Source of the DNA: Vicinamibacteria bacterium
Lineage (GTDB): Bacteria > Acidobacteriota > Vicinamibacteria > Fen-336
Direction of reading: 5' to 3'
DNA: 35,052 nucleotides
Assembly (NCBI GenBank): GCA_025923995.1
Contig: JAICEW010000022.1
Coordinates: 1 to 35,052 of the forward strand
Below the pieces are notes generated by a model. The model searched no databases. It was not told the origin of the DNA and saw only the letters and a program-made list of their open reading frames with translations. The position numbers and the translations under genes were made by a program. Positions 14,415 through 26,373 of the stretch are shown in pieces (position 1 is the first letter of the stretch; the number at the start of each line of letters is the position of its first letter).

Positions 14415-16322
14415 ATGAGGCTGACCCCTCGGCGCTCGCCGATCCTCGCCGCCGCGATCGTGGTGGCGGCTCGCGCGGCGGTGCTGGACGCCGCTCCGGA
14501 AGAGCCGCGCGGCTGGTCCGCGGCGACCCTGGAGGAGGCCCGACGGTCCGACCGTCCCGTGCTCCTGCTGCTGAACGATCCCGGCTGTGCGCCCTGCCTG
14601 GCCGCCGAGGCCCGCGCGCGTGCGGACGTGGACGTCTCCGCGCGCATCGCGCGCGAGTTCGTCTGGGCGCGCGCGGACATCGCGGCCCGACCCGACCTGG
14701 CCGACGCGTTCGGCCTCGCCGTGCGCGAGCTGGGCGGCGGTGAAGGCCAGCCGCTTCTCGCCGCGGTGACCCCCGACGGTCGCCCCTTCCTCGGCCGCGC
14801 GGGGCTCGCCGCGCTCGATCCCGCCGCGTTCGACCGCTTCGCGGCCGAGGCGGTCGGGGGGTACCGCGTCGCACGGTCGGGCCTCGACACCCGGGCCGCC
14901 GCCGTGGCGGAGACGCTGCGCGCGGCGCAGACGCCGGCGCCGGCGGTCCGCCCGTTCGGCCCGGACGCGGTCGAGGCCGCGGTCCGCGCCGTCGTGGGAT
15001 GGTCGGAGCTGGGCCGCGCCGACGGACCGCTGCCGCACGCGGCCCTCGGGTTCCTGCTGGCCGAGCACGAGCGCGCCCGCCGGCCCGAGCTCCTGAAGCT
15101 GGCGGCGGCCACGCTCGACCTGCGCCTGGCGCGCCCGTCGGGCGCGGCGTCCTCGACCGCCGAGGAGGCGCTGCGCCTCGCGACGTGGACGCGCGCGTTC
15201 GCGGCCGCGGGCACCGCGACCTACCGGGCCGAGGCGGCGCGCTCCGCCGACCGGCTCCTGGCCGCCCGCGACTCGGAAGGCCTGTTCCCCGCGCGGGCGG
15301 ACGATCCGCGGCCCGTCGCGCAGGCGAACGGCCTCGCCATCGGAGCGCTCGCGCTGTCCGCCCGCACTCTGGGCCGCGAGGGGGATCGCGACGCGGCGGC
15401 GCGTGCCGCCGGAGCGGTCGCCGCGCGGTTCGGTGCGCCGACGGCGCTCGCGCGCCTGGCAGGCGGGACCGCGGGCAGCGCGTTCCTCGACGACTACGCC
15501 GCGCTGCTCGACGGGCTGCTGGAGCTGTACGAGACGACCGACGACGTCCGCTGGCGCGGTGAGGCGCAGGCCGTGGCCGACGCCGCGACCGCCCGCTTCC
15601 TGGACGTGACCGCGGGAGGCTTCTTCCTGACGGACTCCGCGCACGATCCGCTGCCGGTGCGCCTCAAGCACGCGTTCGACGGCGCGCTTCCCTCCGCGAA
15701 CGGCACGATGGCACGTGCGCTCCTGCGCCTGGCCCTCGCCACCGGCGACCCGCGCTATGCCGACCTGGCCCGTCGTACGGTCGAGGCCTTCCTGGGCGAC
15801 CTCCAGCGCGCGCCGCGCGGGCTGCTCACGCTCGCGGAGGGCGCGGGTGTGTTGATCGGCCGTGCTCCCGCCTCGACAGGCCCCGCCTGGACGGCTCCCG
15901 CCCGCGAGACGCGCGGCGGTGTCACCCTGGAGGCCCGCGCCCCCGCATCCGTGCGCGCGGGCGAGACCTTCGAGCTGTCGCTGGCCCTCACGGCCGCGCC
16001 CGGGACGTTCGTGGTCGCGCGCTCCGGCGGCGCGCTCGACCTCGCGAGCCTCGGCATCAGCGTGCCGCTCGAAGGCGCGCGCCAGGTCCAGCCGCGCCTT
16101 CCCGACCCGAGCCCGCGCCGGTTCGGCTGGAGCCGCGATCCGATCGACGTCTACGAGGGTGCGGCCACGGTGCCGATCCGCGTCACCCTGCCGCGCGACA
16201 TCCCTCCTTCCGAGCGCCCCCTCCGCCTGCGCGTGCTCTTCCAGGCCTGCACCGAGTCCCGCTGCGAGAAGCCCGAGAGCGTCACGCTGTCGACCCTCAT
16301 CCGGATCGAGCCTCCACGCTGA
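14415..16322 (+). CDS. Exported DUF255-like protein: thioredoxin-like + alpha/alpha-barrel + DsbD-alpha-like domain
   Basis: A 635-residue protein. The N-terminus has basic residues and a hydrophobic stretch (about 1-27) that look like a signal peptide. A thioredoxin-like domain follows (about 33-145) with active site CAPC (Cys58, Cys61) in a context resembling the DUF255/YyaL family (RPVLLLLNDPGCAPC). The middle is helical (about 160-500), with repeats such as DDYAALLDGLLELYETT and a family-like FFLTDSAHDPLPVRLKHAFDGALPS. The C-terminus (about 510-635) resembles the DsbD N-terminal domain and has the cysteine pair Cys612/Cys617 before EKP. A role in periplasmic thiol-disulfide exchange is likely but not proven. 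ATG 14415 is chosen for the signal peptide; ATG 14311 is an in-frame alternative. Its 3' end overlaps the HNH gene by 26 bases. Confidence 0.8.
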   Translation: MRLTPRRSPILAAAIVVAARAAVLDAAPEEPRGWSAATLEEARRSDRPVLLLLNDPGCAPCLAAEARARADVDVSARIAREFVWARADIAARPDLADAFGLAVRELGGGEGQPLLAAVTPDGRPFLGRAGLAALDPAAFDRFAAEAVGGYRVARSGLDTRAAAVAETLRAAQTPAPAVRPFGPDAVEAAVRAVVGWSELGRADGPLPHAALGFLLAEHERARRPELLKLAAATLDLRLARPSGAASSTAEEALRLATWTRAFAAAGTATYRAEAARSADRLLAARDSEGLFPARADDPRPVAQANGLAIGALALSARTLGREGDRDAAARAAGAVAARFGAPTALARLAGGTAGSAFLDDYAALLDGLLELYETTDDVRWRGEAQAVADAATARFLDVTAGGFFLTDSAHDPLPVRLKHAFDGALPSANGTMARALLRLALATGDPRYADLARRTVEAFLGDLQRAPRGLLTLAEGAGVLIGRAPASTGPAWTAPARETRGGVTLEARAPASVRAGETFELSLALTAAPGTFVVARSGGALDLASLGISVPLEGARQVQPRLPDPSPRRFGWSRDPIDVYEGAATVPIRVTLPRDIPPSERPLRLRVLFQACTESRCEKPESVTLSTLIRIEPPR

Positions 16323-18879: not shown

Positions 18880-21800
18880 GTGAACGCCTCGGCGCGCGCG
18901 TTGTGGCTCACGGTGCTGGCGTGCAGCCTGGCCGGGGCTCCGGCCCGGGCCTCGTCGCCGGGCCGGCTCGCCTTCCGCGTACTCAATGAGGACCACGGCC
19001 TCGGGAACCTGACGGTCGAGGCGCTGCTGCAGGACCGGGTCGGCTTCCTCTGGGTGGGCACGCAGAACGGCCTCTACCGCTTCGACGGGCGGACCTTCGT
19101 GGCCTACGGCCGCGACGCGGGCTTCAAGAGCACGCGCGTCTTCGCGCTCCACGAGTCGGCCGACGGGACGCTGTACGTGGGCACGCGCGCGGGCCTCTCC
19201 CGGCGCGAGGGCGGGAGCTTCCGGCACGTCACCTCTGCCGACGGTCTGCCCGAGGCGCCGGTGGCGGGCATTGCCTCGGACGCCGGCCACGTCTACGTCG
19301 CGAGCCAGGCGGGCCTGTTCGTCGGGGACGGGCGCGCCTTCCGGATCGAGGCCACGCCGCCCGGTGCGTCCGGTCCCGCCTCGGCCGTGTTCGCGGAGGG
19401 CGGCCACGTGTACGCGGCCTACGAAGGCCTGTTGTTCGAGCGGGACGCGGAAGGGTGGAGGGACGTCGGCACCGACGCCGGGCTGCCCGCCACCGAGCGC
19501 ATCGACCGCGTGGTCAGCGATGCGCAGGGACGGCTGTTCGTGCGCACCGCGCGCAGCCTCTGGATGCGTGCGGCTCCGAGCGGGTTCTTCGTGGCCCTGC
19601 ACGACGGCCTGCCCCCGGCCGCGACCTCGGGCCGGCTGGAGCGCGACGGACGTGGAGACATGCTGCTGCCGACGTCGCGTGGCATCGCGCGCCGCGCGGG
19701 CGACTCGTGGGACATGCTCGGTCGCCGCGAGGGCCTGCCAGCCGACGTGGCGCTCTGCGCGCTCGTGGACCGCGAGGGCTCGCTCTGGGTCGGCCTGGGC
19801 GGCGTGGGGCTGGCCCAGCGCCTCGGCCGCGGCGACTTCGCGAGCTGGGGCATCGCCGACGGGCTCTCGCACGAGCTCGTGTGGGCCATCGCGCGCGACC
19901 GGGCGACGGAAGCGATGTGGGTGGGCACGCAGGAAGGGCTGAACCGGCTCGACCTGAACACCGGCGCCATGCGGACCTGGCGCGAGCGCGAGGGGCTGGG
20001 CGGCGACCTCGTGTACGCCGTCGCGGCCGCGCCGGACGGCGGCGTCTGGGCGGGGTCGTGGCCCGGTGGCGTCACGCGGCTCACGCGCGAGGGAACGGTC
20101 GCGCACCGGTACTCCGCCGCCGGCCTGACTCCCGACACGTTCGAGGTGATCGCGCTGCACCTGCGGGCCGACGGGGAGCTCTGGGCCGGCGCCAGCCGCG
20201 GGGCTTTCCGGCTGGCGGCGGGGAAGGACTCGTTCGAGCCGGCGGGGCTGCCGGGCGGACCGGCCCGCGACAGCGTGTTCGCGTTCGCGGAGGGCGCGCG
20301 GGGCGAGCTGTTCGGCGTCGGACGCGGAGGCCTGCAGCGTTTGACCGGCGGGGCGCCCCGGCGCTTCACGCGGGCGGACGGCCTGACGGACGACTTCGTC
20401 GCGTCCATCGTCCGCCTTCCCGACGAGACCTTCGTGATCGGGTACCGCGAGGCCCTGGGCGTGGCCCGCGTCCGGGTCCACCCCGATCGCCTGGAGTTCC
20501 TGCCCATCGAGCCCGCCGGCGCGATGACGTCGGACATGGTCCAGTTCGTCGGACGCGACTCGGCCGGCCAGCTCTGGGTGGGCGGCGACCGCGGGCTCGA
20601 CGTCTTCGCCGCCGACGGCAGCCGGCGACGCCGGTTCGGCCGCGCCGACGGCCTGCCCACGGAGGACATGGACCAGAACGCCTTCTTCGCGGACGCCGAC
20701 GGCGTGGTCTGGCTCGGCACCAGCCGCGGGCTCGTGCGCTACCGGCCGAGCGAGCCGCTGGGCAACGGGACGCCGCCCAGCGTGGTCCTCACCGAGATCG
20801 CGACGCCCCGGCGCGCGCTGGCCGCGAGCGAGCAGCCCTCGCTCGCGCGCGACGAGCGCACCCTCACCGTCTCGTGGTCGGGCCTCACGTTCCGCGATCC
20901 CAACGCCGTGCGGTACCGCTATCGCCTGGTGGGGCTGGAGGACGAGTTCATCGAGACCGCGCAGACCGGCGCGCGCTATCCGGGCCTGGCCGCCGGCCGT
21001 TACCGCTTCGAGGTGGTGGCGGTGGGAGCCGACGGCTCGGTCTCCCCGGTCCCGGCGGCCTTCGCGTTCTCGGTGATGCCGCCCTGGTGGGAGACCATCT
21101 GGGCCCGCATGGCGATCGTGGGGCTCGTGCTGGCCGCGGGCGCGGCCCTCATCGCCCTGCGCACGCGCGCCCTCGCCGCCGACCGCAGGCGTCTCGAGGA
21201 CGCCGTGATCGCGCGCAACGGGGAGCTGGCGCGAACCAACGCCGAGCTGGCGGACGTCAACAAGCAGCTCCAGGAAGCCTCGGTGCGCGACCCCCTCACG
21301 CACCTCCACAACAGACGCTACCTCACCGAAGTGGTGGCCGAGAACGTGAAGCGCGTCCTGCGCGCGTACGCGGGCTCGGAGCGAGGCGCGACCGCCCGCA
21401 ACCAGGACCTCGTGTTCTTCCTGGTCGACGTGGACCACTTCAAGGAGGTCAACGACCGGCACGGCCATCCCGTCGGCGACCGGCTGCTGGTCGCGCTCGC
21501 GCGCCGCCTGGAGTCCGTCGTGCGCGACTCGGACCTGGTGGTGCGCTGGGGCGGGGAGGAGTTCCTGGTGGTCGCGCGCGAGAGCGACCGTGGCGAGGCG
21601 GAGCCCGTGGCGCAGCGCATCCTGGAGGCGGTGGGTGGCGCGCCCTTCGAGCTGGGCGACGGGGTGGTCCTCGCCCGCACCTGCTCGATCGGATGGGCGG
21701 CGCTGCCGTGGATCCGCGACGAGCCGGGGGCGGTGTCGTGGGAGGAGACGCTGGTGCTGGTGGACCGGGCGCTCTACCTCGCGAAGCGCTCCGGCCGCAA

Positions 21801-21954
21801 CCAGGCGATCGGCGTGATGCCGAGCGAGCACGCGGCGCCCGACGTCGAGTCGCGCTGGTGGCGCGAGCCCTTCGACCGGCTCGAGGGCCGGCTGCGCACC
21901 GCCCGCATCGCCGGACCGCACGCCCGCCCGGCGGGCGAGGGAGCCACGACTTGA
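18880..21954 (+). CDS. Membrane-bound periplasmic-propeller diguanylate cyclase
   Basis: A 1024-residue one-component sensor that probably makes cyclic di-GMP in response to a periplasmic signal. Order: signal peptide (about 1-24); two-component-regulator propeller repeats (about 30-610) with blades such as FLWVGTQNGLYRFDG, TLYVGTRAGLSRREG and AMWVGTQEGLNRLDL; a Y_Y_Y-type beta domain (about 655-735); one membrane helix (744-763); a short coiled coil (about 765-800); and a GGDEF domain from SVRDPLTHLHNRRYL. The active site GGEEF is at 891-895 and is intact. An RxxD inhibitory site (RDSD) lies five residues before it, so product feedback is expected. The GTG start at 18880 gives the signal peptide. 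The stop overlaps the next gene's TTG. Confidence 0.92.
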   Translation: MNASARALWLTVLACSLAGAPARASSPGRLAFRVLNEDHGLGNLTVEALLQDRVGFLWVGTQNGLYRFDGRTFVAYGRDAGFKSTRVFALHESADGTLYVGTRAGLSRREGGSFRHVTSADGLPEAPVAGIASDAGHVYVASQAGLFVGDGRAFRIEATPPGASGPASAVFAEGGHVYAAYEGLLFERDAEGWRDVGTDAGLPATERIDRVVSDAQGRLFVRTARSLWMRAAPSGFFVALHDGLPPAATSGRLERDGRGDMLLPTSRGIARRAGDSWDMLGRREGLPADVALCALVDREGSLWVGLGGVGLAQRLGRGDFASWGIADGLSHELVWAIARDRATEAMWVGTQEGLNRLDLNTGAMRTWREREGLGGDLVYAVAAAPDGGVWAGSWPGGVTRLTREGTVAHRYSAAGLTPDTFEVIALHLRADGELWAGASRGAFRLAAGKDSFEPAGLPGGPARDSVFAFAEGARGELFGVGRGGLQRLTGGAPRRFTRADGLTDDFVASIVRLPDETFVIGYREALGVARVRVHPDRLEFLPIEPAGAMTSDMVQFVGRDSAGQLWVGGDRGLDVFAADGSRRRRFGRADGLPTEDMDQNAFFADADGVVWLGTSRGLVRYRPSEPLGNGTPPSVVLTEIATPRRALAASEQPSLARDERTLTVSWSGLTFRDPNAVRYRYRLVGLEDEFIETAQTGARYPGLAAGRYRFEVVAVGADGSVSPVPAAFAFSVMPPWWETIWARMAIVGLVLAAGAALIALRTRALAADRRRLEDAVIARNGELARTNAELADVNKQLQEASVRDPLTHLHNRRYLTEVVAENVKRVLRAYAGSERGATARNQDLVFFLVDVDHFKEVNDRHGHPVGDRLLVALARRLESVVRDSDLVVRWGGEEFLVVARESDRGEAEPVAQRILEAVGGAPFELGDGVVLARTCSIGWAALPWIRDEPGAVSWEETLVLVDRALYLAKRSGRNQAIGVMPSEHAAPDVESRWWREPFDRLEGRLRTARIAGPHARPAGEGATT

Positions 21955-22708: not shown

Positions 22709-23352
22709 ATGCAGATCTTCCATCACAGCACCAACACCCTTGCGAAGGTCAGCATCTTCGGAGCGCTCTTTGCGGCCGCCGGCGGGCTGTGGCTGGTCCT
22801 CGAGGTGAACCGCTCCTCCTACGTGACGCAGGCCGGCGTCGCGCGCATCCAGCCGGTGCAGTTCAGCCACCAGCACCACGTCGGCGGCATGGGCCTCGAC
22901 TGCCGCTACTGCCACACGTCCGTGGAGACGGCGGCCGCGGCCGGCATCCCGCCCACGCAGACCTGCATGAACTGCCACTCGCAGATCTGGAGCACGAGCC
23001 CGGAGCTGGAGCCCGTCCGCGAGAGCTTCCGCAGCGGCAAGTCGCTCGAGTGGGTGCGCGTCCATGACCTCCCCGAGTTCGCGTACTTCAACCACAGCGC
23101 GCACGTGAACAAGGGCATGGGCTGCACGACCTGCCACGGGCGCATCGACCGCATGCCGCTCGTGTGGCAGGAGGCGTCGCTGCAGATGGAGTGGTGCCTG
23201 ACCTGCCACCGCGCGCCCGAGAAGTTCGTGCGGCCGCAGGCGGAGGTCTTCAACGCGGCCTACGAGCCGCCCGCGGACCAGCTGGAGCTGGGAAGGAAGC
23301 TGGTGCAGGAATACGGACTCAAGCCGCGCACGAGCTGCTCGACGTGCCACCG

Positions 23353-23356
<4 letters not shown>
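22709..23356 (+). CDS. actA: Alternative complex III subunit ActA, pentaheme cytochrome c
   Basis: Periplasmic electron-transfer subunit of alternative complex III (quinol:cytochrome c/HiPIP oxidoreductase). The 215-residue protein has one N-terminal membrane helix (about 12-32) and five CxxCH heme c sites: CRYCH (65-69), CMNCH (86-90), CTTCH (139-143), CLTCH (163-167) and CSTCH (210-214). This is the number reported for ActA of characterised complexes. Many additional histidines (FSHQHHVGG, FNHSAHVNKG) supply distal ligands. It is first in the operon after the promoter. Its stop overlaps the actB start (ATGA). Confidence 0.95.

Positions 23357-26373
<3,017 letters not shown>

Follow-up and report, generated by a model that had tools for sequence, protein, structure and literature searches.

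Proteins of the DUF255 family (PF03190, named Thioredox_DsbH in Pfam) were found by genome searches in bacteria and archaea, and also occur in mammals. The family includes YyaL and SPATA20/SSP411 (human SPATA20), and a solved example is Bab1_2064 of Brucella abortus (7tkv). One study, in the passages that deal with PF03190 and PF02696, states that the bacterial proteins of both families are entirely unstudied and reports that the two families show a negative phyletic coupling (PMC6822775). In Leptospirillum, the relevant passage places yyaL close to trxB, its role being left unclear by the authors (PMC7084401). The Pfam name of PF03190 presumably alludes to chlamydial DsbH. This periplasmic thioredoxin-like protein was suggested to keep the periplasm reducing, and the passages describing it mention neither a toroid nor a DsbD-alpha tail, the comparison made here being by description only (PMC5193440).

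The other system to be considered is DsbD, which comprises an alpha domain (PF11412), a membrane domain (DsbD_TM), and a C-terminal thioredoxin (gamma) domain. In E. coli DsbD, the alpha domain hands electrons to thioredoxin-fold partners.

Here, we describe a gene of a Vicinamibacteria bacterium (Acidobacteriota) whose product shares features with both systems; the window refers to the whole stretch of 35,052 nucleotides analysed (contig JAICEW010000022.1). Like DUF255 proteins, the window protein has a thioredoxin fold followed by a helical toroid, and a C-terminal C-x4-C-x-x-P motif. Unlike ordinary members, it has a signal-like N-terminus, CAPC instead of CHWC, a DsbD-alpha domain replacing the ordinary tail, and a shortened toroid devoid of the PHFEKMLYDNA and DADSEGEEG motifs. 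With DsbD, it shares the alpha-like tail, but it is not a full DsbD transporter, because it has no DsbD_TM match in Pfam and lacks a thioredoxin at the C-terminus (C617 is followed by 18 residues); its thioredoxin domain is N-terminal and of the DUF255 type. According to the structural model, its toroid also has a fold in common with (alpha/alpha)6 glycosidases and AGE epimerases (Z 23.0-24.8).

Gene and domain architecture

The features of the gene, all on the forward strand, are as follows:

14415-16322 (+): whole gene, a DUF255-like / DsbD-alpha fusion of 635 residues plus stop, exported-looking
14415-14492 (+): export-signal-like segment, residues 1-26 (sequence, hydropathy, and model; end of the segment approximate)
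14508-14864 (+): thioredoxin-fold domain, PF03190, residues 32-150 (Pfam score, order of strands and helices, P113)
14586-14597 (+): CAPC motif, C58/C61, the family consensus being CHWC or CYWC (sequence)
14874-15863 (+): helical toroid of (alpha/alpha)6 type, residues 154-483, with a shortened N-half (model, VIA-align)
15900-16310 (+): DsbD-alpha-like beta-sandwich, residues 496-632 (PF11412 score, tail profile, all-beta model)
16248-16265 (+): cysteine pair of the tail, C612-TESR-C617, in a C-x4-C-x-x-P motif with proline P620 (C612-TESR-C617-EK-P620; sequence)

The codon-position GC of this ORF is 0.81/0.61/0.92. In two neighbouring genes, third-position values are 0.93 and 0.95, and second-position values (0.53 and 0.54) are below that of the window ORF. 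A chance ORF or an antisense artefact was ruled out, since codon-position GC, domains, and model agree.

The export-signal-like segment includes a 12-residue hydrophobic stretch, SPILAAAIVVAA (residues 8-19, mean hydropathy 2.32), and a helix was modelled at low pLDDT over residues 9-23. PF03190 matched residues 32-129 with 38.9 bits (cut-off 27), and the family-conserved thioredoxin proline is present (P113). The protein contains four cysteines, C58, C61, C612, and C617, and no others. Its CAPC motif departs from the CHWC or CYWC expected of PF03190 and found in 84 of the 87 other rows compared, the remaining three having CHYC, LQSL, or no aligned residues at this site.

An AlphaFold2 model was built from 35 aligned sequences (10 fused, 24 ordinary, and the window protein), with a mean pLDDT of 82.9 and a pTM of 0.74. 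From N- to C-terminus, it displays a thioredoxin fold (residues 49-150 approximately), modelled mostly at pLDDT 70-96 and with a thioredoxin-like order of strands and helices, the helical toroid (154-483), and the beta-sandwich (496-632). The best solved match is 7tkv_A (VIA-align Z 31.0, rmsd 3.5, 451 residues aligned); the other 49 rows of the VIA-align list (Z 23.0-24.8) are mostly GH76, GH88, GH105, and epimerase toroids. An earlier note, made from the sequence alone, had read this ORF as an exported protein with thioredoxin-like, helical-barrel, and DsbD-alpha-like parts. The three parts were borne out by Pfam, the model, and the tail profile described below, and the hydrophobic N-terminus suggests that the protein is exported.

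DsbD-alpha tails within the DUF255 family

On the window protein, PF11412 matched residues 510-623 with 20.4 bits and scored 24.5 bits in a second scan, neither value reaching the cut-off (25). When the window tail and those of 18 relatives were combined into one profile, it matched solved DsbD-alpha structures, 1l6p being the best (E 2.4e-9), together with 3pfu, 1jpe, 5nhi, 1jzd, and 1vrs; in the profile alignment with 1l6p, the only one read in this way, the cysteine pair of the tail aligns with the cysteines of the structure. Among eight fused relatives scanned, six passed the PF11412 cut-off (29.6-57.4 bits), and no match at E 0.01 was obtained for L151 and L152, the closest of the eight to the window protein. 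The L151 tail scored 80.7 bits with the tail profile, in the building of which the window tail was included. At the subfamily level, the DsbD-alpha assignment is secure, and the anticipated match of the C-terminal segment to PF11412 or a DsbD-like fold was obtained at the family level through the tail profile; for the window/L151 branch, the assignment is suggested by two sources, the alignment and this profile.

Relatives were sought with the window protein in 247 genomes of its phylum, and public genomes were scanned with a two-row alignment, 80 of the 451 confirmed loci being taken; a scan of genome contigs with the single protein returned no relative. The matches listed include fused relatives from Planctomycetota and from Candidatus Hebobacterum (Armatimonadota) as well as from the phylum of the window, with a weaker case in Kiritimatiellia (L115). 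The domain order and C-terminal pair of the window protein recur in fusions L036-L043, L044, L045, L049-L051, L061, L089, L093, and L112. A profile of the barrel end and the tail matched 344 of 396 genomes of the phylum, and position 338 or beyond of its 347 positions was reached by at least 37 matches in at least 35 of the 396, the window's genome included (rows counted by profile end position). A fusion unique to the window could thus be ruled out. The earlier note regarded a DsbD-alpha-like tail as absent from DUF255 proteins, which is true of most members collected here but not of the fused subfamily. A search of mostly open-access literature found no description of a DUF255-DsbD_N fusion, a weak negative.

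In L042, a single ORF combines DUF255, DsbD_N, DsbD_TM, and a C-terminal thioredoxin by Pfam; L043 and L040 align to it along its length, an alignment reading, as Pfam was run on L042 alone. These three proteins (L042:1757-5428 (-), L043:1596-5348 (+), and L040:1560-5240 (+)) are 1224-1251 residues long and have a full DsbD with DUF255 at the N-terminus.

Tail types were assigned in 132 ORFs: a DsbD-type tail was found in 21 and the ordinary motif in 95, which leaves 16 with neither. Contig ends or frames truncate some of these 16, and they include L115, which is fused by tblastn, was not called by the tail profile, and is without the last proline of C-x4-C-x-x-P, and L059, whose tail lies in a separate frame. 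This set omits 14 loci as repeats or unwanted (L004, L006, L007, L008, L124, L125, L126, L128, L132, L143, and L159-L162), ORFs without an SPYL-type anchor, including the fused L047, L152, L153, and L157, and repeats of the same C-terminus; the tail profile used was built with the window inside. Exported-looking DUF255 proteins with neither tail were also observed in planctomycetes (L053, L065, and L102; about 605-614 residues from the SPYL motif).

All four cysteine columns are invariant in the 35-row alignment, so that the conservation called for by the earlier note holds at this level, and all 21 DsbD-tailed relatives in the tree set have cysteine in the C612/C617 columns. An ordinary C-x4-C-x-x-P tail occurs in 95 of the 111 ORFs without a DsbD tail; this is the fair figure, the 66 of 66 obtained for ordinary tree rows being circular, as these rows were picked by the motif. 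The ordinary DUF255 protein of the window's own genome ends in YVCRNFACQAP, and the 7tkv sequence has CKGHVCLPP. Given the 95 of 111, a cysteine pair at each end is a trait of the DUF255 family and no peculiarity of the window protein. On the same count, a fusion-specific C-terminal pair was ruled out.

A signal-like N-terminus was scored in 17 of the 21 DsbD-tailed ORFs versus 9 of the 95 ordinary-tailed ones, and the four DsbD-tailed ORFs scored without signal include the mis-anchored L156. When a tree was built from the thioredoxin and barrel regions (87 rows), from which L156 is absent and 30 loci of the ordinary group were left out as near-copies or by thinning, tail type changed twice; with L151 or the window omitted, two and three changes were counted. 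On this tree, G187 groups with Bryobacteraceae at full support, from which the window's phylum was judged to be probably Acidobacteriota. The association between tail type and predicted export is striking, but it reflects very few independent events, given two or three switches of tail on the trees. A Fisher test of tail against signal was rejected as independent evidence for the same reason, the pair test having one or two pairs.

Gene neighbourhoods showed little recurrence: no Pfam family was found in more than 2 of 53 scanned ORFs (53 of the 75 neighbours of ten relatives; 25 of 63 families listed), and those found in two were beta-lactamase, secretin, secretin_N, and AAA_16. None of four neighbours of the window gene was found in the stretches around L151, L152, L153, or L039. 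Further along the window, we take 18880-21954 (+), by eye, to encode a propeller-type sensor protein with a GGDEF domain at its end, and 22709-26373 (+) presumably encodes a multihaem cytochrome together with subunits of iron-sulfur/molybdopterin type, similar to those of alternative complex III.

Divergence of the window copy and its nearest relatives

Conserved positions were defined as those kept in at least 90% of the 34 other aligned sequences, which also served as the comparison set. At the resulting 113 positions, the window protein has 41 kept, 42 changed, and 30 absent, whereas 109-113 are kept by ten fused relatives that were themselves among the defining sequences. Some of the 41 (L3, S8, P9, and L11) fall within the signal-like segment and could be kept by chance. 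Conservation is uneven along the protein. The thioredoxin region keeps 17 of 50 positions; in the barrel, the N-half retains 5 of 40, with 8 changed and 27 deleted, and the C-half 15 of 19; the tail retains all 4. The barrel motifs GGGFHRYStD..W..PHFEKMLYDNA and DADSEGEEG are not found in the window protein, which was therefore classed as a divergent DUF255 homologue and no typical member of the family. On these counts, the window copy is a degenerate relative of the DUF255-DsbD-alpha subfamily, and the earlier suggestion of a barrel acting on a sugar or metabolite is unsupported for this copy.

Close relatives are few: E values below 1e-40 were obtained in 2 of 192 other genomes of the window's class (G252 and G250), both of the same family as the window, and the strongest matches to relatives begin at window residue 249 or later. 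L151 is the nearest relative that is complete, with 41% identity across window residues 269-628. At the site of the N-terminal CxxC it reads LQSL, but it retains the C-terminal pair (CDRHEC), as does the contig-cut L152 (CDASEC). Given the LQSL of L151, a two-site relay is not conserved in the window/L151 branch. The branches of the window and L151 are 2.76 long each versus a median of 0.34, as might be seen under relaxed selection.

Redox context, proposed route, and alternatives

The window's genome encodes a DsbD-like protein. At E 0.001, DsbD_TM (PF02683) had one match in this genome, and the 708-residue frame that contains it also has a DsbD_N match of 81.5 bits. Besides the window protein, a second fusion of a thioredoxin fold to a C-terminal DsbD_N was identified in this genome. 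This ORF (L161:1423-2640 (-), G000:C441) has an AhpC-TSA redoxin and a C-terminal DsbD_N with YQVCSDTTCYPP. Its AhpC-TSA domain has an in-frame TGA at the redox site (W-TGA-PYC), which likely encodes selenocysteine, since the genome also has SelA (G000:C43). Another short paralogue of DUF255 type, the second in this genome and 503 residues long, was also observed (L002:1450-2958 (+), G000:C77), with a CHWC thioredoxin domain and a shortened barrel-like region; it has no C-terminal tail or cysteine pair.

The preferred reading, to which we give an even chance, is that the window protein is an exported DUF255 (Thioredox_DsbH) thiol-disulfide oxidoreductase in, or derived from, a DsbD-alpha-tailed subfamily, acting as a DsbD-fed two-site periplasmic reductase. 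In the intact subfamily, the alpha domain would most likely get electrons from a membrane transporter of DsbD/CcdA type, which in some relatives is fused on directly, and would pass them via the C-x4-C pair to the built-in thioredoxin domain; the latter may then reduce a putative client at or near the helical toroid. This route from DsbD to tail, thioredoxin site, and client is suggested by the DsbD of the genome, the L161 fusion, and the biology of E. coli DsbD. As both redox sites survive in the window copy and the N-half of its toroid is mostly stripped of conserved residues, this copy may be a reduced two-site periplasmic reductase fed by the genome's DsbD. A periplasmic thiol relay between the two cysteine pairs, as the earlier note had proposed, is plausible but unproven; that it would be self-contained is doubtful, since a DsbD-alpha-type tail would need an outside electron source and the genome has one DsbD-like frame. 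Counted in favour of the preferred reading were the domains and fold, the cysteine conservation in the family, the single-ORF combination in L042, the frequent signal-like N-termini of DsbD-tailed ORFs, and the DsbD-like frame and second DsbD_N fusion of the genome. Counted against it were the missing CxxC of L151, the PF11412 score of the window, the absence of PF11412 matches in L151 and L152, the long branches, the few changes of tail type, and the non-recurring neighbours.

Alternatively, only the DsbD-alpha tail may still work in the window/L151 branch, reducing separate periplasmic clients or buffering DsbD electrons, with the thioredoxin domain and the toroid as carriers in decay. That L151 has lost its CxxC favours this explanation for the branch, in which L151 and L152 both keep the C-terminal pair, and so do the conserved positions of the window copy, lost mainly from the thioredoxin region and the N-half of the barrel and kept in its C-half and tail, and the strongest matches, confined to residue 249 onwards. 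Yet the window retains CAPC and P113, has no cysteines outside the two pairs, and has a thioredoxin fold modelled for the most part at good pLDDT; overall, we consider this explanation rather unlikely. The very long branch, the many conserved positions lost, and the two genomes of the class with close matches could also indicate a gene in decay with no present function, which seems improbable given that the frame is open over 635 codons and GC-rich at its third positions, that the N-terminus is signal-like and all four cysteines are kept, and that the three-domain model is confident.

The toroid might instead be a carbohydrate-active or epimerase-like enzyme, regulated or stabilised by the two thiol pairs. 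After 7tkv, its nearest folds are mostly GH76, GH88, GH105, and 2-epimerases, and PHFEKMLYDNA and DADSEGEEG are conserved in intact family members. Among nine fused loci, with one neighbour each, L044 adjoins a sulfatase and a GH123-type protein (GH123 being from the wider scan of 53 ORFs), and L045 a heparinase-like protein. However, the N-half of the barrel has lost or altered 35 of its 40 conserved positions in the window protein, all its Pfam glycosidase matches are below cut-off, neighbours do not recur, and a toroid fold alone shows no function, so that such an enzyme would be a poor candidate here. Residues between the cysteines of a CxxC motif tune redox potential, and the CAPC of the window, versus CHWC or CYWC in the family, might point away from a reductase and towards a DsbA/DsbC-like oxidase or isomerase. 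This is very improbable: the DsbD-alpha tail and the full-DsbD fusion of L042 point to the reducing branch, and none of the six Pfam matches of the window protein is a DsbC-type domain.

Beyond the preferred reading of the window protein as a DsbD-fed reductase, a general scheme may be tentatively proposed, although we regard it as doubtful. DUF255 proteins would be thioredoxin-fold reductases with their own electron-input C-x4-C, served by thioredoxin in the cytoplasm; in exported members, the tail would be replaced by DsbD-alpha and served by DsbD. On this scheme, proteins of the DUF255-alpha-beta-gamma type would be DsbD transporters to which a client is tethered, whereas the window protein would be a stripped-down form with only the two redox ends. 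The subfamily is more interesting than the window protein itself, and the window copy offers a natural experiment in which the barrel is eroded and the cysteines remain. By linking DUF255 to DsbD-alpha and, in some proteins, to the whole of DsbD, the fusions point to a likely electron donor for DUF255 and to a second redox site, both of which are directly testable in vitro. This little-described subfamily thus suggests a way to test the role of DUF255.
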